Origin: Natronosalvus vescus
GTDB lineage: Archaea > Halobacteriota > Halobacteria > Halobacteriales > Natrialbaceae
Reading direction: 5' to 3'
DNA: 64,000 bases
NCBI RefSeq assembly: GCF_023973145.1
Contig: NZ_CP099546.1
Coordinates: forward strand, 2,294,001 to 2,358,000
The position numbers and the translations under genes were made by a program. Shown here in pieces: positions 3,848 to 64,000 of this stretch. Below the pieces are notes generated by a model. That model made no database searches, had not been told where the DNA came from, and was given only the letters and a program-made list of their open reading frames with translations. How positions within the stretch are numbered: the stretch's first letter is position 1; each line of letters begins with the position of its first letter.

Positions 3848-4048
3848 CCGAACGATTCTCGAGGGATGGAGTCGGTACTCGAGGTCGACTCCGAGGGGGT
3901 ACGTGTGGGCGCGCACCGGGGAAGGATGGGAACTGATACCGTCAGATCGGGGTGCGCGCCTCGTCGTATTCATTCGCTCACATCATCATAAAACTCAGTC
4001 AGACGGCCGTGTGACGGAAGTCTGACGGCTCGAGTCTTCCGGCTCCGA

Positions 4049-5155
4049 TCAGGGTGCCTCCTCGACCCGAAAGACGAGCACGTTCTGATGGACCATCGAC
4101 GGCACGAACGAGAACGGGTAGCCGTAGACGTGAAGATCCTTGCCGGGATCGTACCAGATCAGGTTCGCGACGAGCGTCATCGGTGCTGCGCTTTCGATCG
4201 CTCGAGCGAGGTCGGCCGCGAGGAACTCGTAGGACTGCTCGCGGTACATATCGCCGATGAAGACGACGGCGTATCGACCGGGTTTGACCGTCCGCACAAA
4301 CCGCTGAAAAGCGTCGCCCATGGTCTCGAGCCAGTCGGCTTTCGAGCTTGAGCCCCCACCATCGTCTCCGCTCTGGCCCTCGCATTTACCTTCCCCGTCT
4401 CCACCGTCGGTTCCATCGAACGCACCCAGTTTGCTCTCGCGGGTCGCTCGCCGGTTCCGCGTCTGCTCGCGCTCGTCCATGTCCCAGTAGGGCACGTCGG
4501 TCAACAGCAGGTCGACCGAGTCGTCGGGGAGGTCTTCGATCAACTCCCGACAGTCGCCCTCGCGTACGTCCTGGCCCGCCAGCGGCGTCTCGTCGCGTGC
4601 GCTGCGCTCCGCATTCTCGCGCTCGAGGGCCGTCTCGTACACCTCGATCCATCGCGGGTTGCGTTCGAAGCCGATAGCCTCTCGCTGACCGGTTCCCTCG
4701 TGTTCACAGAGACTCGCGCCGAGGAGCGTCCCGCCGACGCCGGCGTACGGATCGAGGACGGTTTCGCCGGCCTTGCTGAACCGTCCGATGAGTTCAGCAC
4801 AGAGCCGCGGCGGCTTCTGTCCGCCGTGTTCGCTCCGAAGCTCGTGCTGGAGGTCGGGCGGATAATTCTCCGGGATCACCGACTTCGTCGCGAACTTCCA
4901 CTCCCGCCCGGTCAGGTCGTTGAGGCGATTGCGCTCGTCGTAGATCCCCCGTCCCTCGAGGTACGTCTGGTGATCGGAGAGTGCCTCGGTGTTGACGATG
5001 TCGCCGTCTTCGATGGGGAGTGACTCCTCGCGGGCCCGGTCAGCGTCGAACGTGCCTTCGTCGTCGGTGAACAGGCGGCTCTGGCGGTGATCGCTCCCCG
5101 CGCTGTCGCCTTCGGCGTCCGCCCCTCCGTCGTCGGCCATACCTCGAGTGCTCAC
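4049..5155 (-). CDS. orphan DNA (or RNA) N-methyltransferase
   Basis: A 368-residue S-adenosylmethionine-dependent methyltransferase of the N4/N6 amino class. The SAM-binding motif DPYAGVGGTLLGA is near residue 135 and the catalytic-type tetrad reads TDVPYW (about residue 210), in place of the usual NPPY/SPPY. An acidic, glycine-rich insert follows (about residues 245-265). The C-terminal part (MVHQNVLVFR) resembles the ends of N4/N6 methylases. No restriction endonuclease gene is adjacent, so this is an orphan enzyme; a tRNA or rRNA substrate cannot be excluded. The start may be 5155 or the second methionine at 5140. Confidence 0.75.
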   Translation of the reverse strand: MSTRGMADDGGADAEGDSAGSDHRQSRLFTDDEGTFDADRAREESLPIEDGDIVNTEALSDHQTYLEGRGIYDERNRLNDLTGREWKFATKSVIPENYPPDLQHELRSEHGGQKPPRLCAELIGRFSKAGETVLDPYAGVGGTLLGASLCEHEGTGQREAIGFERNPRWIEVYETALERENAERSARDETPLAGQDVREGDCRELIEDLPDDSVDLLLTDVPYWDMDEREQTRNRRATRESKLGAFDGTDGGDGEGKCEGQSGDDGGGSSSKADWLETMGDAFQRFVRTVKPGRYAVVFIGDMYREQSYEFLAADLARAIESAAPMTLVANLIWYDPGKDLHVYGYPFSFVPSMVHQNVLVFRVEEAP

Positions 5156-5279
5156 CGGTCGGTGATAAACGCTTTCGCTCTCGACCGTGTGTTTGAACTC
5201 CCTCTCCCGTTCGCAGTGGCCGTGGTGGTGACATCGGTGTTAGCGCGAGCCTTTGTACGCTCAGTCCCTTCATCCGTCC

Positions 5280-6281
5280 ATGAACATGCTCGTCGACGGC
5301 GAGTGGCGAACCGACGCGTTCGAGACGACGAACGAGGAAGGGTCGTTCGAACGCCAGACGACACCCTTCCGGGATCAGGTTCGCAACGAGCCTGATGCCC
5401 GCTTTCAGCCCGAGGCCGGTCGGTACCACCTCTACGTCTCGTATGCCTGCCCGTGGGCGCACCGAACGCTGGTCGTTCGTGCCCTCCGGGGGCTCGAGGA
5501 TGCCATCTCCGTGTCGGTCGTCGATCCCTACCGGGGCGAGGACGGCTGGCAGTTCACGCCCGAGAAGGAGGGGTGTACCGTCGATCACGTCCACGACGCA
5601 GACTACCTCCGGGAGCTGTACGTGCGCGCCGATCCGGACGCGACCTGTCGTGTGACGGTGCCCGTGCTCTGGGACACGAAGGAGGACACCATCGTCAACA
5701 ACGAGTCGGCCGAGATCATTCGCCTGTTGGACACCGCGTTCGACGACCTGGCGACGCGGGACGTCGACCTCTACCCCGAGGGCTACCGGGAGGAAGTCGA
5801 CCGGATCATCGAGTCGATCTACGAACCGATCAACAACGGCGTCTACCGGGCGGGCTTCGCGACGAATCAGGAGCCGTACGACGAGGCGGTGACCGAACTG
5901 TTCGACGCGCTCGCTCACTGGGACGACGTGCTGGCCGACCAGCGCTACCTCGCGGGTGATCGCCTGACAGAAGCGGACGTCTGTCTGTTCACGACGCTCG
6001 TTCGGTTCGACCAGGTGTACCATACTCACTTCATGTGCAACGTGCAGTTCATTCGGGAGTTCGACCACCTCTGGCCGTACCTTCGCGACCTCTACCAGAC
6101 GTCGGGGGTCGCCGAGACGGTCGAAATGGGACACATCAAAGAACACTACTACACGACCCACCCCGACGTGAACCCACACCGGATCGTCGCCCAGGGGCCG
6201 GATCTCGACTTCGAGGCGTCACACGACCGGGGCGAATTACCGGGGGAGCCGCCGATCTCGAGTGCGGCGGCGGACGACTAA
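5280..6281 (+). CDS. glutathione S-transferase Xi family / glutathionyl-hydroquinone reductase-like
   Basis: A 333-residue protein of the GS-HQR (YqjG/ECM4) family. The thioredoxin-like half has the family signature YACPWAHRT with the catalytic cysteine at residue 57, and an all-helical GST C-terminal domain follows (EADVCLFTTLVRFD). Bacterial members reduce glutathionyl-hydroquinones. Haloarchaea mostly make gamma-glutamylcysteine instead of glutathione, so the natural thiol here is probably different (inference). The ATG at 5280 (MNMLVDGEW) is used; a second ATG follows at 5286, and the extension to 5253 looks spurious. It is divergent from the methyltransferase. Confidence 0.9.
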   Translation: MNMLVDGEWRTDAFETTNEEGSFERQTTPFRDQVRNEPDARFQPEAGRYHLYVSYACPWAHRTLVVRALRGLEDAISVSVVDPYRGEDGWQFTPEKEGCTVDHVHDADYLRELYVRADPDATCRVTVPVLWDTKEDTIVNNESAEIIRLLDTAFDDLATRDVDLYPEGYREEVDRIIESIYEPINNGVYRAGFATNQEPYDEAVTELFDALAHWDDVLADQRYLAGDRLTEADVCLFTTLVRFDQVYHTHFMCNVQFIREFDHLWPYLRDLYQTSGVAETVEMGHIKEHYYTTHPDVNPHRIVAQGPDLDFEASHDRGELPGEPPISSAAADD

Positions 6282-6294
6282 CCGATCCGACTCC

Positions 6295-6723
6295 TTATCC
6301 GTCGTCCTCGAACTCGAGGGCGGCCGAGTTGATACAGTAGCGCTGGCCCGTCGGCTGGGGGCCGTCCTCGAAGACGTGGCCGAGGTGGCCCCCGCAGGTG
6401 GCACACAGGACTTCGGTTCGGTGCATGCCGTGGCTCGTGTCGGTGCGGGTCTCGATCACGTCGTCGTCGACGTCGTAGAAACTCGGCCAGCCACAGCCGG
6501 AGTGGTATTTCGTATCTGACTCGAAGAGGGTGGCCCCACAGCCGGCACAGGAGTAACTGCCGTCTTCCTCGTGATCGACGTATTCGCCCGAAAACGGCTG
6601 TTCGGTGCCGGCTTCGCGCAGGATCCGGTACTCCTCATCGCTCAGTCGCTCGCGCCACTCGTCGTCGGTCGTCGGGACGCGCTCGTGCTCGCTTTCGCTC
6701 TCGGTGTCGGTCTCGTTGCTCAT
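6295..6723 (-). CDS. msrB: peptide-methionine (R)-S-oxide reductase
   Basis: Reduces the R-sulfoxide of methionine residues and repairs oxidised proteins in the cytoplasm. The 142-residue product has two zinc-binding pairs (CAGC at 59-62 and CATC at 107-110), the family block GCGWPSF and the catalytic RYCINS with Cys130. The acidic N-terminal extension of about 20 residues is a haloarchaeal feature. It ends 13 bases after the GS-HQR-like gene, tail to tail, so both neighbours of this junction deal with thiol or oxidant chemistry. Confidence 0.95.
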
Positions 6724-6808
6724 CGAACGAATCTAGGGCGGTCGCTCTCAAGAGTCTGTCTCCGTTGGCGATCCACTCGAGCGGGGTATAATCGTACCGT
6801 CCTGTCGA

Positions 6809-6970
6809 TCACCGGCCGGTGATGACGTTCGTGCTCTCACAGGATGGACACTGGGTCATCCGTCCGAGGCCGGGTACCTCGAGGCGAATCCACTCGTCGT
6901 CCCCACCGGGGGCTTCGAAGCCACAGTTCAGACAACGAGACTGCTGCGGTGTCGGTGATTCGAGCGCCAT
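6809..6970 (-). CDS. small zinc-ribbon protein (53 aa)
   Basis: A 53-residue protein with two CxxC knuckles, RCLNCGF near residue 12 and QCPSCES near residue 40, separated by about 25 residues: a single zinc ribbon and nothing else. The start at 6970 (MALESP) is chosen because the family-like part begins there; in-frame ATGs also occur at 6997 and 7015. Function is unknown. Haloarchaeal genomes encode many such mini zinc proteins, some affecting biofilm or stress responses. Confidence 0.65.
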   Translation of the reverse strand: MALESPTPQQSRCLNCGFEAPGGDDEWIRLEVPGLGRMTQCPSCESTNVITGR

Positions 6971-7127
6971 AGCCGATTCTATGCTATTCACTACCATATG
7001 GATTTTCGTTAGCAATGATGACTCTCAATCGCCGTGATCGATCTCCGTCGTCGTCGAAACGTACCCGCTGTGAAGATCTTCCACACTCGGGCAACCATTA
7101 TCCGTCGTCGGCCAGCACCTCTCCTCC

Positions 7128-7748
7128 ATGCACACGTGTTATTTCGACCTCGATGGCACCCTCGTCGAATTCGACGTGCCGTACGCGACCCTCTACGACA
7201 CGGCGCTCGAGCGACTCGGCGTCGAGCCTGCTGGTGCGTCGACCTTCAGCGAGCGATTCTTCGAGGTGTTCGGGACGGTCGATGATCCTTACGCGGCCGC
7301 CATCGAGGCGACCGCGGTCGAGGTGGAGCCGGCGGCGTTTAGCGACTCTATCGTCGAGACCGAGATCGAACACACTGAACCGATCACCGGGGCAAAAGAG
7401 ATCCTCGAGGCGCTTTCCGAGGAGTACCGGCTCGGCGTGCTGACGAACGGCCTCGGTCACGTCCAGCGGGCGAAACTCGAGGCCGTTGGGCTCGACCCGT
7501 GGGTTGAGACGATCGTCGTCGCCGACGAGGTCGACGCCTGGAAACCCGAGCCGGCGATCTATCGCGTTGCCGAGGAGCGATTACCGGCCGACTCGCACAC
7601 GTTCGTCGCGGACGACCTCGAGCGGGACGTGGTGCCGGCGATCGAATGCGGGTGGCGAGGTGTGTACGTCGGTGCGACCGACGGCGATTCGACACAGGCT
7701 ACCGTACTTTCCATCGAGAAGCTCGAGGAGTGCCTCGAGATACTGTAA
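7128..7748 (+). CDS. HAD-superfamily hydrolase
   Basis: A 206-residue HAD phosphatase. Motif I is FDLDGTL (residues 6-12, nucleophile and acid/base aspartates), motif II is the LTNG block near residue 104, motif III is the lysine in WKPEPAIY, and motif IV is VADDLERDV. An alpha-helical C1 cap sits between motifs I and II, as in phosphoglycolate-phosphatase-like and haloacid-dehalogenase-like enzymes. The substrate is unknown. ATG 7128 directly precedes the first strand. Confidence 0.9.
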   Translation: MHTCYFDLDGTLVEFDVPYATLYDTALERLGVEPAGASTFSERFFEVFGTVDDPYAAAIEATAVEVEPAAFSDSIVETEIEHTEPITGAKEILEALSEEYRLGVLTNGLGHVQRAKLEAVGLDPWVETIVVADEVDAWKPEPAIYRVAEERLPADSHTFVADDLERDVVPAIECGWRGVYVGATDGDSTQATVLSIEKLEECLEIL

Positions 7749-7791
7749 CTGGAACCAGAACTCGAGCGCGTCCCGTCTCAGTGTCCACTTC

Positions 7792-8520
7792 TTACTCGAG
7801 CGCGTCCGATTCCACGATCGTGTTCCGCAACGTGCCGACGCCCTTGTAAGTGATCTCGACGGTGTCGCCCGGTTCGACCAGTCCCGGGTTCGCCGGACTG
7901 CCGAAGGCGATCACGTCGCCGGGCCGGAGCGTGAATCGCTCGGAGAGGAAGGAAACGATCTCGAACGGGTCGAACAGCATCAGTTCGGTGGTCGCCTCCT
8001 GGCGGTGCTCGCCCGCGACGTCGGTCCACATCTCGAGGCTCGTCGGATCGACGTCGGTCTCGATCCACGGGCCGAGCGGGCCGGAGCCGTCGAACGCCTT
8101 TCGCGCGGTTCGCCCCTGCTGGTCGAGCGCGTCGAGGTCGTTCATGACGGTGTACCCACGAACGACCGAGGGGACGTCCGCGGGCTCGAGGTCTCGACAG
8201 CGGCTGTCGATGACCGCCGCCAGTTCGCCCGCGTAGGTCAGCTCGTCACTGAAGGTGGGGTAGGGAATCGACTGCTCGTGACCAGCCAATGAAGCCGGCG
8301 GCTTGATGAAAAAGTCCGGCTCCTCGGGCCGTTCGTAGTCCATCTGCTCGAGCGTTTCGGCGTAGTTGCGCCCGACGCAGTACAGCGCGGTCGGTTCACA
8401 CGGCGGGAGCAGATCGCCGTCACGGCCGACGGCGTACGCGCCGTCGTCGGCGTGGACGACGCCGTCATCGTACCGGCCGGAAACGGGCCCCTCGGGTGTC
8501 GCGAGTCTCGCGAGTCGCAT
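7792..8520 (-). CDS. fumarylacetoacetate hydrolase family protein
   Basis: A 242-residue enzyme of the FAH superfamily, which cleaves or decarboxylates acyl-pyruvate-type compounds with a bound divalent metal. Visible family blocks are YCVGRNYAETLEQM (about residues 47-60), the metal-ligand segment YAGELAAVI, GYTVMNDLDALDQQ and the C-terminal LRPGDVIAFGSPANPG and EPGDTVEITYKGVGTL. Length is normal for prokaryotic acylpyruvase/isomerase-type members. It is convergent with the HAD gene, divergent from the FAD/Fe-S oxidoreductase, and its specific substrate is not evident. Confidence 0.9.
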   Translation of the reverse strand: MRLARLATPEGPVSGRYDDGVVHADDGAYAVGRDGDLLPPCEPTALYCVGRNYAETLEQMDYERPEEPDFFIKPPASLAGHEQSIPYPTFSDELTYAGELAAVIDSRCRDLEPADVPSVVRGYTVMNDLDALDQQGRTARKAFDGSGPLGPWIETDVDPTSLEMWTDVAGEHRQEATTELMLFDPFEIVSFLSERFTLRPGDVIAFGSPANPGLVEPGDTVEITYKGVGTLRNTIVESDALE

Positions 8521-57939: not shown

Positions 57940-58548
57940 ATGAGCGAACAGGAACAACCCGAACCCGAGGCTCCGGCCGGCGGCGGCGACCTCTCGGCCA
58001 AGCTCTTTGGCACCTGGGACGTCTCCGAAATCGTCTACAACGACCCCTCGACCGAGCGCTACCTCTCGGTAACGCCCATCGCCCACACGGCGGGTCGTCA
58101 CGCGAGCAAGCAGTTCAAGAAGTCCGAGATTTCGGTCGTCGAACGCCTCACCAACCGGCTGATGCAGACCGAGGAGAACACGGGCAAGAAACAACAGACG
58201 CTGAAAATCGTCCGTGACGCCTTCGAGATCATCCACGACCGCACCGAGGAGAACCCCGTCCAGGTACTCGTCAGCGCCGTCGAGAACGCGGCTCCCCGCG
58301 AGGAGACCGTCCGCCTGAAATACGGTGGGATCTCGGTTCCCAAAGCCGTCGACGTCGCTCCCCAGCGACGCGTCGACCAGGCTCTGAAGTTCATCGCCGA
58401 GGGGGCATACAACGCCTCGTTCAAGACGCCGACGTCGGCCGCCGAGGCCCTCGCGAGTCAGCTCATCGGTGCCGCTAACTACGACGTCCAGACGTACGCC
58501 GTGAGCCAGAAAGAAGAGAAAGAGCGCGTCGCGGCTGCTGCCAGATAA
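57940..58548 (+). CDS. rpsG: small ribosomal subunit protein S7
   Basis: A 202-residue 16S rRNA-binding protein of the 30S head. It has an acidic N-terminal extension, VERLTNRLMQTEENTGKKQQ and NPVQVLVSAVENAAPREETV, and the C-terminal FKTPTSAAEALASQLIGAAN. ATG 57940 overlaps nothing but follows S12 by one base. The gene usually followed by fusA; here the next 5 kb are accessory instead. Confidence 0.97.
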   Translation: MSEQEQPEPEAPAGGGDLSAKLFGTWDVSEIVYNDPSTERYLSVTPIAHTAGRHASKQFKKSEISVVERLTNRLMQTEENTGKKQQTLKIVRDAFEIIHDRTEENPVQVLVSAVENAAPREETVRLKYGGISVPKAVDVAPQRRVDQALKFIAEGAYNASFKTPTSAAEALASQLIGAANYDVQTYAVSQKEEKERVAAAAR

Positions 58549-58659: not shown

Positions 58660-59223
58660 GTGCTGCCATCCGACCCGCCACGTGTGTTCGTCGTCCACTC
58701 GAACGTGGCGGCGGCCGTCATCGACTTCGAGTCGCTTCCGTTTTCGACTCGATACGCTGACTTCGAGCGCTCGATCCTCGAGCAGTTCGACCCCGAGGAC
58801 GACGTCCTCGTCCTCGAGTGGGCCCTCACTGCTCCGGACGCGCGTGGCGTCCTCGATGCCGCAACCCAGCAGGTACCAGCGACCCGGACGCTCGCGTTGA
58901 CGCCATCGGTTCCGGCGGACGATCCGATCGACCGTGGGGCCGACGAATATCTGGTGACGCCCGTGACCGCCGACCAGTTTCAGTCGACGGTCGAGCAACT
59001 GGTTATCCAGCACGCCTACGAGGTGACGCTCGACGAGTATTTTCGACTCGCCACCGAACGGGCGGTGCTAAAGAACGAACTCGATAGTGGCGTTGATGTC
59101 GGCGATCGATACGAGGCGGTCACGGCGCAGCTGTGTGCGTGCCGACAGCGTGCGGAGACGCTTCGGCGTGGGCTTTCGGAGACGGGATTCGACCGGACGT
59201 TGCGGAAATTATTGGACGACTGA
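58660..59223 (+). CDS. HalX-domain protein with degenerate receiver
   Basis: A 187-residue protein starting at GTG 58660. The N-terminal 110 residues have the pattern of a response-regulator receiver, but the phosphoacceptor position is Glu53 (VLVLEW) and the conserved acidic pair is missing. The C-terminal part is a HalX domain (EVTLDEYFRLATERAVLKNEL; FDRTLRKLLDD). A TATA-like aaatttatg lies near 58627, giving a very short leader. It is likely a phosphorylation-independent regulator or partner of a kinase. Confidence 0.8.
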   Translation: MLPSDPPRVFVVHSNVAAAVIDFESLPFSTRYADFERSILEQFDPEDDVLVLEWALTAPDARGVLDAATQQVPATRTLALTPSVPADDPIDRGADEYLVTPVTADQFQSTVEQLVIQHAYEVTLDEYFRLATERAVLKNELDSGVDVGDRYEAVTAQLCACRQRAETLRRGLSETGFDRTLRKLLDD

Positions 59224-59381: not shown

Positions 59382-59510
59382 ATGACGGAACTCAGCGACT
59401 ACCTGAAGAACCACCCACGAATGATTGGCGTGCTGTTTACGGCGATGCTGTTGTTGTCTCAGGCGGGAACTGTCGTTGCCGGGAACGGCACGACCTACGG
59501 CGGCCCGTAA
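59382..59510 (+). CDS. 42-residue membrane peptide (DUF7503-like)
   Basis: A 42-residue peptide too short for ordinary gene finders. It starts MTELSDYLKNHPRMIGVLF, continues with one hydrophobic helix (residues about 14-33) and ends with a short NGTTYGGP tail. This layout matches a haloarchaeal mini-protein family I recall as DUF7503 (unverified). A TATA-like aaataaattta at 59340-59350 lies in a strongly A/T-rich region about 30 bases upstream. It ends six bases before the CHAT gene end, tail to tail. Confidence 0.7.
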   Translation: MTELSDYLKNHPRMIGVLFTAMLLLSQAGTVVAGNGTTYGGP

Positions 59511-59516
59511 CTCGAC

Positions 59517-61589
59517 TCAGTGATTCGTCAGTGCAGTCTCGTGTGACCAGAGTAACGTATCGTTCAGCACAATCGGGATCTCCTCGAGGCTCAAAAACGC
59601 GTCGAGCTGTGTCGCCGTCACCGTGAACGGGCCAACGTTCCCGGGGGTCAAAAAGTAGGAGTTAGTCGAATCGAGATAGGGCATATAGAGCGCACCTTTT
59701 CCCATTCCCGTCGGCACGTACAATTCGAGTTCGACCTCGAACCCCTCGTCAGCTGGCTCGATCGTTGCGAACGTTGGCGTTCCGGTCTCTGCCTGCGCGA
59801 TCGTCGTCAACCCGTCGCCGACGAGCCGGTACTGTTGGCCGACGAAACTCTCTTTGCGAGCGATTTCGAGGGCTGCGTACAGTGGATAGCCGCGATTTAA
59901 CAGCCTGGCGAGCTGGCTCCCAACGCTAATTGCGCCACTGTTGATCACGTCACCGAGGGTGACGACGCCACCGATGCTGCCTGCTTCGATCAGATACAGT
60001 CCCTGGTTGTGTGACTGGCAGGCGTTGAGCAAAAACGCCTTGGCACCGACGTGCTCAAGCGACGAGGCGGACAGTTTTCCGTCTGTACACTGAAATCCTC
60101 CCTCGTCGATGTGGCCGATGTAGTGGAAGAAGTCGCTGTCGTCGGCGAGCACGGATTCGAGTTCTGCCTTCGTCAGTTCGTAGTTCACCGAAACGGAAAA
60201 CGGTAGCTCCTCTCGGTCGCCGTAGATGCCGTTGACGGTCTCGAGTTCCTCGCGCATCTCCGGATCGTTACAGACGACCGCAATCTCGATGGGATCCGTT
60301 CGTGGTGTTCGGCCGTTGCTGTGATAAAAGGCTGACACCGGTGTCGTACTCACGATCTCAGCCGATCGATCGCTTCGCCACGATTGGGTAATCGTCGGCA
60401 TCGTCGGCGGCTCGACGTGCTCGGCGTCGGTCGTCGATCCCCGGTCGGAGTCGGCGCTGCGCACGAACGAACCGCGCGTGAACGCTTTGATGGCGGTGAC
60501 TTCCTCCTGGTCGGTGGCCGTCTCAGCTGTTTCCGTCTCCTGAATCCGAACGATCGCCAGATCGTCGGTGACGAACGGGAGAAACGAGATGGCGTCGGCC
60601 GTTGGCGGCAGGTGGGTCTCGAGTCGCCACTCCGGGAGGTGTGGTTCGATCGTTTCGAACGGGACGCCCAGGTACGTTTCGACCTGCTCGTGAATCGGTC
60701 GGTCGTACGTCGCTGCAAGATCGAACTCGAGATCCGGTTCGACGGCGTGTCGTTCCTGGAGCGGGACGGGCGTCGTCCCCTCGGTGCGAGCGACGCAGTC
60801 GAGGAAAAACAGGTGTTTCAGGGTTTGCTCGACGGTCGCCTCGAATCCATCGGCGCCGCTCAACGAGTGCGTGAAGCCACCCTCGGTGACGATCTGCGGG
60901 TTCGGCCCGGGACGTACCGCTGCGCCGAGATAGTACGCGAGCGGCGTTATCACGTAGATGTCTTCCAATCGCCGTGGTACCTCGATCGTGACGCCGGTGT
61001 CGGGTCGTTCGAGCGAGTCGGGTATGTGAAGTTCGTCGCCCCGTTCGAGCGCAGGTGGGTGCCCGCGTAGCGTCGGATACGATCGCTCGGGCGTCGTCGT
61101 CTTGAGTGCCGACCCGAACATGGTGACCGCTTCCATCACGTCGTCGGGGTCGCTGGTCGTTGTGATCGTCGTGGCTGGTCGGGTGTGATAGGATCGAACA
61201 CCGATGAGAACGGGTGTGTCCTCCTCGAGACTGATGTAGGTTCGCTCGGTATCGAAGTACAGATGGATCGAACTCTCTACTCGGATGTAGATTTTGAACG
61301 GTGCCGAGATGTCGAGTGTGTACTGTCCGTCCTCGAGGGCGGTCTGCTCGATGTTCCCGATGTCGTCGAGCATGGCTCCGTTCTCGTCACGGACGTGAGG
61401 GAGATCGTTCGTGGGGAGGGTAATCGCGTCGGTCGTAATCTGAACGGCCGCGTCGACTGGAAACTGGATACGTTCCGGTGCTACCGGTTCCGGCGATACC
61501 GAGCGGTGTGTCGTCAGCTGATAGCGATGTCGCTCGATACGATCGATTATCTCGAGACCATCCGTAATCGGTTCGAACGTTGGCTTCAT
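59517..61589 (-). CDS. CHAT-domain (caspase-like) protease
   Basis: A 690-residue protein. The C-terminal CHAT protease domain (about 430-600) has the catalytic dyad His493 (FFHYIGHIDEGGF) and Cys524 (AFLLNACQSHNQG), with the core GSIGGVVTLGDVINSGA. The first 400 residues are a beta-rich region of unknown fold (VDAAVQITTDAITLP), followed by an acidic linker. The C-terminal 90 residues are also conserved-looking. There are no TPR repeats and no transmembrane helix, unlike Csx29-type CHATs. Downstream gene 61633 is in the same operon. Its target is unknown. Confidence 0.88.
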   Translation of the reverse strand: MKPTFEPITDGLEIIDRIERHRYQLTTHRSVSPEPVAPERIQFPVDAAVQITTDAITLPTNDLPHVRDENGAMLDDIGNIEQTALEDGQYTLDISAPFKIYIRVESSIHLYFDTERTYISLEEDTPVLIGVRSYHTRPATTITTTSDPDDVMEAVTMFGSALKTTTPERSYPTLRGHPPALERGDELHIPDSLERPDTGVTIEVPRRLEDIYVITPLAYYLGAAVRPGPNPQIVTEGGFTHSLSGADGFEATVEQTLKHLFFLDCVARTEGTTPVPLQERHAVEPDLEFDLAATYDRPIHEQVETYLGVPFETIEPHLPEWRLETHLPPTADAISFLPFVTDDLAIVRIQETETAETATDQEEVTAIKAFTRGSFVRSADSDRGSTTDAEHVEPPTMPTITQSWRSDRSAEIVSTTPVSAFYHSNGRTPRTDPIEIAVVCNDPEMREELETVNGIYGDREELPFSVSVNYELTKAELESVLADDSDFFHYIGHIDEGGFQCTDGKLSASSLEHVGAKAFLLNACQSHNQGLYLIEAGSIGGVVTLGDVINSGAISVGSQLARLLNRGYPLYAALEIARKESFVGQQYRLVGDGLTTIAQAETGTPTFATIEPADEGFEVELELYVPTGMGKGALYMPYLDSTNSYFLTPGNVGPFTVTATQLDAFLSLEEIPIVLNDTLLWSHETALTNH

Positions 61590-61632
61590 ATCGCGTAGGG
61601 GGCTGTCGTTGCGTGTAGCCGGTCAGCCTCGG

Positions 61633-62349
61633 TCACAGGTGTTCCGTGGGGATCCAACCAGAGGTGTGGTCGTCGTCGAGAATCCACTGTTCCTGCCACG
61701 CTTCGTCGTGCTCTCGTAGGACGACCGTGATGTCGAAAAGCGGTTCGAGTACGGAGACGATCAGGGCATCGTGGGCCGCCGGGACGTGGTAATGAATCAT
61801 CCCGTTGGCTGCTTTCACCCGCCCGTTGAGCAAGTGAACGAACTGGAAGACGGCCTCCCGGCCGTACCGCTCGAGTAACGGCAACAGCGAGTCGACGCCG
61901 ATACGAAGGGTTCCGGGCTCAAGGGCCTCGTCGTCGAACGCGTCGATAGCGTTCGAGATGGCGATCCCGATGTCGCCGAGGGTGTCGGGATGAGTGGCTT
62001 CGTCGGTGTCGGAGGGAGATGGCGGCGACGTCGGACTCGTGAACACGGAGGGAGCAACGGTCGTACCGCGGGTGACACCGTCGCCGTCGTATTGAATGAT
62101 GGTCGTCTCATCGACCGAGTTCGCCTGGTGGATGTGTTCGTCGATACCCTCGCCGGTCGTCGTCACCAGAATTCGGCGACGCTGTTGTTCGGCATCGTCT
62201 CCGAGGAGTCGACTGGTGACGTGCTGACGCTGTCGCTCGCCCACCGAACCGACGACGAGGACGCTCGAGCCGTCCCGCTTCAGTCGCTCGAGTGCAGTAG
62301 TAAACGACGTACCGGTGGGATCGAGATTGTTCATAGTACCGGAAGGCAT
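61633..62349 (-). CDS. RecA/KaiC-like protein with degenerate P-loop (DUF7504-like)
   Basis: A 238-residue protein that looks like a RecA-fold ATPase relative. The first strand reads SVLVVGSVGERQRQHVTSRLL, where a P-loop lysine should be but is not. A Walker-B-like strand (LRIGVDSLLPLLERYG) follows near residue 150. I recall it as DUF7504-type, unverified. It lies 43 bases ahead of the CHAT gene on the same strand and is probably the first gene of that operon. An alternative start is 62334 (MNNLD). Confidence 0.7.
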   Translation of the reverse strand: MPSGTMNNLDPTGTSFTTALERLKRDGSSVLVVGSVGERQRQHVTSRLLGDDAEQQRRRILVTTTGEGIDEHIHQANSVDETTIIQYDGDGVTRGTTVAPSVFTSPTSPPSPSDTDEATHPDTLGDIGIAISNAIDAFDDEALEPGTLRIGVDSLLPLLERYGREAVFQFVHLLNGRVKAANGMIHYHVPAAHDALIVSVLEPLFDITVVLREHDEAWQEQWILDDDHTSGWIPTEHL

Positions 62350-62757: not shown

Positions 62758-64000
62758 ATGAGTAAGCGAACGGACGCGACAGGATCTCCTTTCTGGGCGG
62801 ATGACGTCGACGACTCTCTGGCGATCCATCGTTTCCAGACGCTCGTTAATATCGTCGACGATGGAATCTATCAACTCGATGCTGCCGGTCGATTCGTCGC
62901 AGTTAACGATGTCATCGTCGAGCTGAGCGGCTACACCCGGGACGAACTCCTCGGCGAACACGTCTCTATTGTGCTCCATGACGACGATATCGAACGAATC
63001 ACGCGTGAAATCGCCAGATGCATACGGAGCGACGAGCGGTTGACCGAAACGTTCGAAATCACACCCCGAACTGCCTCCGGTGAGGCCCCGGATTGTGAGC
63101 TACGGGTGAGCCTGCTCGTCGACGATGACACGTATCAGGGATCCGTCGGAATCGTCCGTGACGTGACCGACAGAAAACGAAGGAAGGAAACGCTCGACGA
63201 ACGCGAACAGCAACTCGAGCGCGAACGCGACCTAATCGATCGAATTCTGGAGACGAGCCCCATCGGGATCCAGGTGCTCGACGCTGACGGGAATATAACT
63301 CGCATGAACGAGCATCTCAAGGATATCCTCGAAATTCCCGACGGGAAAGCGGACACGTACGACCCGTCACAGCGGACGGTTTACGACGAGAACGGGAGCG
63401 AAGTCACGACGGACGAACACCCCTTTGCGCGAACGCTCGAGACGGGGGAGCCGGTGTACGACGAAGTCTTTCAGATCGAACTTCCGAGCGGCGATTCACG
63501 GTGGCTCTCGGTCAGTGCAGCACCGCTTTTCGATGAGGCCGGCGGGATCGATCGTGTCATCGCGGCCGGCGAGGACATTACCGATCTCAAAGAGCGAGAA
63601 CGGGAACTCGAGACCGAATTAGACGAGGTATTCGGACGAGTTTCTGACGCATTTTACGCAGTCGACGATGAGTTCCGGTTCACACACGTCAACGATCAAG
63701 CAGCAGATCTCCTGCAACATCCCAAAGAAGCGTTACTCGGTGAGACGCTCTGGGACGTGTTTCCGACTGCCGCAGAAATCGACGAGGTGTGGGGCGCGTT
63801 TCACACGGCCCGGGACACACAGGAGCCGACCAGCTACGAACTCTACTACGACACGCTCGACTTCTGGGTCGAAGCAAATCTCTACCCGTCCGAAACCGGG
63901 ATTTCGGTCTACTTCCGCGACGTGACCGAGCGGAAGGAGCGCGAACGCGCCCTGGAGGAGTCCGAACGACGCTACCGCACGCTCGCGGAGTATTTTCCGA
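62758..64000 (+). CDS. multi-PAS sensor protein, 3' truncated by the window
   Basis: A partial CDS starting at ATG 62758 with at least three PAS domains: about residues 25-140 (FQTLVNIVDDGIYQLDAAGRF; YTRDELLGEHVSIV), 160-280 (ILETSPIGIQVLDADGNITRMN) and 285-395 (RVSDAFYAVDDEFRFTHVNDQ), linked by coiled-coil-like RER/ELE repeats. It probably continues to a histidine kinase or BAT-type HTH beyond the end. Open to 64000. Confidence 0.85.
   Translation, partial: MSKRTDATGSPFWADDVDDSLAIHRFQTLVNIVDDGIYQLDAAGRFVAVNDVIVELSGYTRDELLGEHVSIVLHDDDIERITREIARCIRSDERLTETFEITPRTASGEAPDCELRVSLLVDDDTYQGSVGIVRDVTDRKRRKETLDEREQQLERERDLIDRILETSPIGIQVLDADGNITRMNEHLKDILEIPDGKADTYDPSQRTVYDENGSEVTTDEHPFARTLETGEPVYDEVFQIELPSGDSRWLSVSAAPLFDEAGGIDRVIAAGEDITDLKERERELETELDEVFGRVSDAFYAVDDEFRFTHVNDQAADLLQHPKEALLGETLWDVFPTAAEIDEVWGAFHTARDTQEPTSYELYYDTLDFWVEANLYPSETGISVYFRDVTERKERERALEESERRYRTLAEYFP

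Follow-up and report, generated by a model that had tools for sequence, protein, structure and literature searches.

CHAT proteases act in known defense systems (PMC10028731, PMC9729208). Their role can usually be understood only from the partner they have; the partner described here is defined by its sequence across an archaeal class, as far as a nonapeptide accessible to synthesis and testing. A different line of work found that extracts of Haloferax volcanii contain high caspase-4-like activity, which was blocked by zVAD-FMK, and its authors pointed out that the apoptotic machinery has no clear homologues in archaeal genomes (PMC3615174). In the present study we analyzed a locus in a 64,000-nucleotide stretch of the genome of Natronosalvus vescus (here called the window), in which a first-pass annotation had grouped a CHAT protease, a single-helix peptide, and a RecA-like protein. 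The peptide and the CHAT protease form a real unit, and their pairing, with convergent partners throughout the class Halobacteria, is far beyond chance.

Results

Organization of the locus in the window

The coordinates, the facing arrangement of the peptide and protease genes, and the 6-base gap given in the first-pass annotation were all confirmed by the open reading frame (ORF) check. Its placement of the genes after a ribosomal block was also correct: the block, named from sequence (NusA-like protein, S12, and S7), ended at 58548, and a HalX-domain protein (58660-59223) lay between it and the peptide gene.

The peptide gene (59382..59510, plus strand) encodes 42 amino acids, MTELSDYLKNHPRMIGVLFTAMLLLSQAGTVVAGNGTTYGGP, and the product matched the Pfam family DUF7503 (PF24335) with an E value of 1.8e-23 and 82.2 bits, against a cutoff of 27, with no other Pfam match. 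Residues 1 to 33 (59382..59480, plus strand) make up a conserved leader that resembles a signal peptide, contains one hydrophobic helix, and ends in a V-V-A sequence that would be a signal peptidase site by the -3/-1 rule only. The C-terminal residues 34 to 42 (59481..59507, plus strand) form the nonapeptide GNGTTYGGP, hereafter the core, which comparison of homologues identified as the element persisting across partner architectures. Exactly 6 bases (59511..59516) separate the facing stop codons, after which comes, on the minus strand, the ORF of the CHAT cysteine protease (59517..61589, 690 amino acids), assigned from the ORF and its homologues. Alignment of homologues placed the codons of the catalytic residues His493 and Cys524 at 60111..60113 and 60018..60020, respectively, both on the minus strand. 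The third gene (61633..62349, minus strand) encodes a RecA-like protein of 238 amino acids. Divergent from it, an ORF starting at about 62758 and running past the window end at 64000 was judged by eye to be a probable PAS-type sensor. The genome contains another complete set of the three genes at a separate site (L085).

The CHAT protein

The 690-amino-acid window protein gave no match in Pfam (E ≤ 1), NCBIfam, or PADLOC. For their part, 16 of the 64 aligned relatives matched PF12770 at E ≤ 0.05 (best E value, 5.1e-5), and the profile of the family rendered a sole PDB match at E ≤ 1, a weak one (E = 0.19) extending over the His and Cys motifs of 8tl0, which we take to be SAVED-CHAT (PDB entry title, "CHAT domain-containing protein"). 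The family was assigned to CHAT because of these two results, the PF12770 matches among the relatives and the match to 8tl0 at the His and Cys motifs. The His493/Cys524 dyad, already recognized as intact in the window protein, was invariant in 102/102 aligned close homologues. AlphaFold2 models from five sequences, of either the whole protein or the domain alone, were poor (mean pLDDT, 42) and fairly confident only in residues 1 to 133, a beta-sandwich with generic structure matches (Z up to 7.4). No signal peptide was seen in the CHAT protein.

CHAT genes were divided into type A (close) and type B (diverged) by an uncurated threshold of 690 bits on our own profile. Judging from the alignments, the CHAT active site in the pairs is nearly always intact. 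At one locus (L159, genome G383), two tandem CHAT genes (4026-6092 and 6204-8258) both lacked the His/Cys dyad, and one of them still faced a DUF7503 peptide; this is possibly a pseudoprotease pair. Genome G030 contained tandem CHAT paralogues, two at L173 and three at L174, with no recognized peptide, and the dyad was absent from the one aligned CHAT member of each locus.

Distribution and pairing of the two genes

A CHAT homologue was present in 125/125 genomes of the family Natrialbaceae, and DUF7503 was found in 121/125. In the class Halobacteria the peptide family was near-universal (335 of 391 genomes), and outside the class it was found in 0/53 sampled genomes of the phylum. Every sampled DUF7503 locus had a convergent CHAT gene. 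Starting from the protease, the peptide was present at 30/30 of the best loci retrieved solely by their similarity to CHAT, and a convergent partner was observed at 25/25 further type A homologues fetched regardless of the peptide, many of them from genomes picked for having no DUF7503. Among 74 tabulated CHAT genes of type A, 70 had a convergent partner, the four partnerless genes being second tandem copies that adjoin a paired CHAT. Of the class-level genomes with no DUF7503 match, 26/53 also had no CHAT. Among type B genes, 23/35 had no recognized convergent partner. Within the sampled genomes, the pairing, together with the arrays described below, constitutes a solid sequence fact.

In the relatives, the tail-to-tail spacing was close, with stop codons that often overlapped. 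Two diverged loci, L180 and L184, presented the peptide head to head with CHAT, so that a convergent order, though usual, is not indispensable. Some genomes showed expansions of CHAT genes. At L101 to L104, which come from several genomes of the family, the second of the tandem type A CHAT genes had no peptide of its own and was convergent to an apparent ribosomal protein S7 gene.

Peptide anatomy and selection

The leader was strongly conserved, following the pattern [YF]Lxx[HN]P[RK]MxGxLFTxxLLLSQAGxxxA, with a basic residue after [HN]P in 85/85 distinct peptide genes. In the last two positions of these 85 genes, Gly was found in 85 and Pro in 79. The entropy by codon position (first/second/third, class-wide) was 0.18/0.14/1.81 for the terminal Gly-Pro, compared to 1.68/1.68/1.78 for the variable residues, a pattern that therefore reflects selection at the protein level.

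The residues between leader and stop were studied in 108 distinct Gly-Pro-ended peptides. The tail was 8 or 9 residues long in 106 of them, and 97 different tails were counted, in which charged residues made up 1.1% of the positions before Gly-Pro. Directly before the tail stood [VA]xA, with Ala at -1 in 104 and Val or Ala at -3 in 104, which by sequence is the signal peptidase I rule. Tails were conserved inside a genus, as exemplified by [ST]Q[VI]GP in the peptides of genus g16. Being varied across the class yet conserved in the genus, the tail is therefore clade specific rather than unconstrained. Positive selection on the core was considered but not supported: close pairs yielded pN/pS values of 0.66 for the tail and 0.41 for the leader, and the tail is conserved within a genus.

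Seven type A partners ended without Gly-Pro. DUF7503 variants that stop without it (for instance, ...ANGGAIS) were observed at L162, L163, L164, L150, L169, L170, and L172, and such variants occupied several places on the CHAT tree.

Tandem arrays of the core in one genus

Six species of genus g60, each represented by one genome, had a type A CHAT gene but no match to DUF7503. The CHAT partner in that convergent position kept a DUF7503-like start, had lost the helix, and carried an array instead. The arrays contained 13, 10, 7, 7, 5, and 4 copies of a unit consisting mostly of [YFM][TN]AD followed by GNxxGISGP, and the last unit ended exactly at the stop codon. Within each genome the cores were identical (GNSGGISGP, GNGGGISGP, GNGSGISGP, or GNSSGISGP). 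By codon position (first/second/third), the differences among the core copies numbered 0/0/36 for the array of 13 copies; the corresponding figures for the array of 10 were 0/0/24. The copies have drifted at silent sites and still encode the same nonapeptide, which indicates that the nonapeptide matters. Its repetition in tandem suggests that the peptide itself is used by the protease system.

The arrays formed one clade (SH-aLRT, 97), whose sister was a single-helix peptide form ending in GNSGAISGP, and the CHAT catalytic motifs were intact in the array genomes. In the rest of the class, no comparable arrays were found. The core was preceded by Ala in the helix forms, but nearly every array unit had Asp at this position, which is suggestive of a shift from a site like that of signal peptidase to one like that of caspases; YVAD, a caspase-1 substrate, is the sequence with which the TAD site of the arrays was compared. 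Inspection by eye revealed no CHAT change near the active site that matched the replacement of Ala by Asp. A strongly conserved stretch, approximately CAGATATTCTCGAAAAATTATAATT, was observed upstream of the array ORF (L137 and L175 to L179) and also in the single-peptide relatives L048 and L052, which suggests that these loci share a promoter or regulator site.

Other partner forms and plasmid copies

In two other species, a helix peptide not belonging to DUF7503 occupied the same place and also ended in Gly-Pro. A diverged CHAT clade of eight loci (SH-aLRT, 95) faced short ORFs that were mostly helix free and ended in [VI]S[ST]Y[GS]GP, PYTGP, or GYTGP, several of these ends being preceded by KR or LD. 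For comparison, Gly-Pro ends occurred in 1.17% of all ORFs of at least 35 amino acids. These soluble ORFs are predictions that came only from a scan for Gly-Pro ends, a broad scan for helix peptides beside the diverged CHAT genes having missed them; AT-rich sequence, a putative archaeal promoter, was found upstream of some. The clade often had a serine hydroxymethyltransferase gene on one side and the gene of a TbsP-type regulator on the other, followed by a YcaO gene (L135, L143, L144, L157, L171, and similar loci), which suggests a conserved neighborhood. Across all these forms, the element that persists is a C-terminal 8- or 9-mer, usually ended by Gly-Pro, in front of which stands a sequence where cleavage is plausible (AxA, TAD, or KR).

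CHAT relatives were also found on haloarchaeal megaplasmids, and 8 of 9 plasmid CHAT genes examined had a convergent partner, most of these partners being unannotated.

The RecA-like protein

The RecA-like protein was assigned to DUF7504 (PF24336) by Pfam (E = 3.2e-52; 178 bits against a cutoff of 27). It lacked the P-loop lysine, as had been noticed at the outset, the corresponding sequence being VLVVGSVGERQ, and the Walker A motif GxxGxGK[ST] was found neither in the window protein nor in 18 CHAT-linked relatives. A comparison of the protein with PDB rendered no relevant match. Only some type A loci had DUF7504 immediately upstream of the CHAT gene (26 cases at position -1). Of the three-gene association proposed initially, the co-occurrence of peptide and CHAT was conserved class-wide, and the RecA-like gene did not follow them beyond part of the loci. 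Because it stands next to only part of them, DUF7504 is an optional and less constant neighbor, at most accessory, and is probably an accessory regulator.

Discussion

The pairing was observed class-wide, with a conserved dyad, conservation of the core at the protein level, arrays of the core, and pairs that persist although the helix is gone. The core is likely tied functionally to CHAT. Since the C-terminal peptide is common to the helix, tandem, and soluble partners and CHAT is their constant neighbor, we propose a dedicated protease-peptide pair in which the core would serve the neighboring CHAT protein as its cognate ligand or substrate, a proposal to which we give about an even chance. 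Also in its favor are the Gly-Pro ends of the helix peptides of another type and of the soluble ORFs, against 1.17% of all ORFs of at least 35 amino acids. The small gene would encode a precursor whose working part would be the C-terminal 8 or 9 residues, usually ended by Gly-Pro. In most species, a signal-peptide-like single-helix precursor, cut at [VA]xA, would present or release the core, and in one genus a helix-free polyprotein would supply 4 to 13 identical cores separated by [YFM][TN]AD, with CHAT itself making the cut between TAD and the following Gly. The freed or exposed core would then bind CHAT and might set or receive its activity, or be processed by it.

Several observations weaken the ligand or substrate reading, namely the seven type A partners without Gly-Pro, the dyad-less pair at L159, and the 23/35 type B genes without a recognized partner. 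Furthermore, if the leader worked as an ordinary signal peptide, the core would end up outside the cell and a cytosolic CHAT would reach it only after import, which counts against this reading; in the array form, the core would stay inside. The leader is also the basis for reading the peptide as a secreted signal, with the leader as signal peptide, the 8- or 9-mer released outside the cell as a clade-specific signal, and CHAT either an intracellular responder after reimport or an unrelated pathway neighbor. The [VA]xA motif before the tail, a tail length of 8 or 9 in 106/108 peptides, the 97 different tails conserved within the genus, and identical tandem copies that resemble known peptide precursors are all in agreement with it. 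However, the arrays and soluble ORFs have no signal peptide, the leader is unusually conserved for one, and neither an exporter gene nor a receptor gene was identified next to the pair; we consider a secreted signal unlikely.

The first-pass annotation had suggested a cleavable membrane effector or sensor. On this reading, CHAT would cut the cytosolic N-terminal segment after HP[RK] and free a membrane-active helix. The basic residue found after [HN]P in 85/85 genes fits such a cut, cleavage after Arg or Lys is known for some clan CD proteases, and the positive-inside rule would place the N terminus in the cytosol, the expected location of CHAT. That residue, however, also serves ordinary membrane insertion, the conserved C-terminal end is left unexplained, and both the helix and HP[RK] are absent from the arrays and soluble partners, in which the CHAT dyads are intact and the short C-terminal peptide stays. 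Because the membrane helix is thus dispensable, the effector idea loses weight and seems quite improbable to us. The first-pass annotation also touched on defense and presented that idea as inference. An antivirus defense or abortive infection module is very unlikely: CHAT proteases do act in defense (PMC10028731, PMC9729208), and there are megaplasmid paralogues and expansions in some genomes, but the distribution is near-universal in the class, the PADLOC scan of the three window proteins gave no match, and no relatives were found in phage and viral collections or contigs. The idea of defense therefore received no positive support. Finally, the close tail-to-tail spacing with often overlapping stop codons could reflect antisense regulation of convergent genes, the peptide being a small hydrophobic toxin. 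Protein-level selection on the peptide, the head-to-head pairs at L180 and L184, and the existence of helix-free forms make this extremely improbable, and an explanation by antisense alone is disfavored by the head-to-head cases and the protein-level selection.

DUF7503 and DUF7504 are both Pfam families of unknown function. Our literature search retrieved no paper naming either of them, and nothing was found for CHAT together with Haloferax volcanii; the link to CHAT and the repeated C-terminal core appear to be undescribed in the literature searched. With the ligand or substrate proposal, these function-unknown families gain a concrete hypothesis. H. volcanii, which served as a control genome, carries DUF7503 and, by the pairing, probably has this CHAT, which makes the protease a candidate gene for the old puzzle of caspase-4-like activity without a known caspase homologue. 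A broader form of the proposal is a haloarchaea-wide system of peptide signaling or self-recognition, in which a clade-specific 8- or 9-mer, usually ended by Gly-Pro and encoded either once behind the signal-peptide-like leader or in a polyprotein of 4 to 13 copies, would directly gate CHAT, itself maybe a source of the caspase-like activity of H. volcanii; we hold this as a doubtful, tentative possibility. If the peptide is a signal, this would be a peptide-gated protease system in archaea, and we know of no archaeal example of this kind.

Comparison with known systems

The likeness of the window family to SAVED-CHAT (8tl0) is limited to the protease part; Pfam detected no SAVED domain in the family, and the partner genes differ. 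CHAT/gasdermin cell death systems have as partner a gasdermin with a cleavable C-terminal inhibitor; the partner here is a 42-amino-acid DUF7503 peptide with no other Pfam match and no PADLOC match. Tandem peptide precursors of the yeast alpha-factor type share with the arrays several identical short peptides and short linkers with a candidate protease site. Unlike them, the haloarchaeal arrays are archaeal, have no secretion signal, and lie beside CHAT rather than a known exporter or receptor. As for secreted pheromone precursors, the -3/-1 rule and the tails of 8 to 9 amino acids hold by sequence, whereas the array and soluble forms have no leader. Like Craspase, the Csx29 (TPR-CHAT)/Csx30 system of type III-E CRISPR in which Cas7-11/gRAMP adjoins TPR-CHAT, the pair couples a CHAT cysteine protease, through genetic linkage, with a partner protein of its own. 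It differs in that Pfam found no TPR in the window CHAT or its relatives and PADLOC did not match the three genes, the only ones scanned, and in the nature of the partner, which here is a peptide of about 38 to 47 amino acids or an array of nonapeptides.
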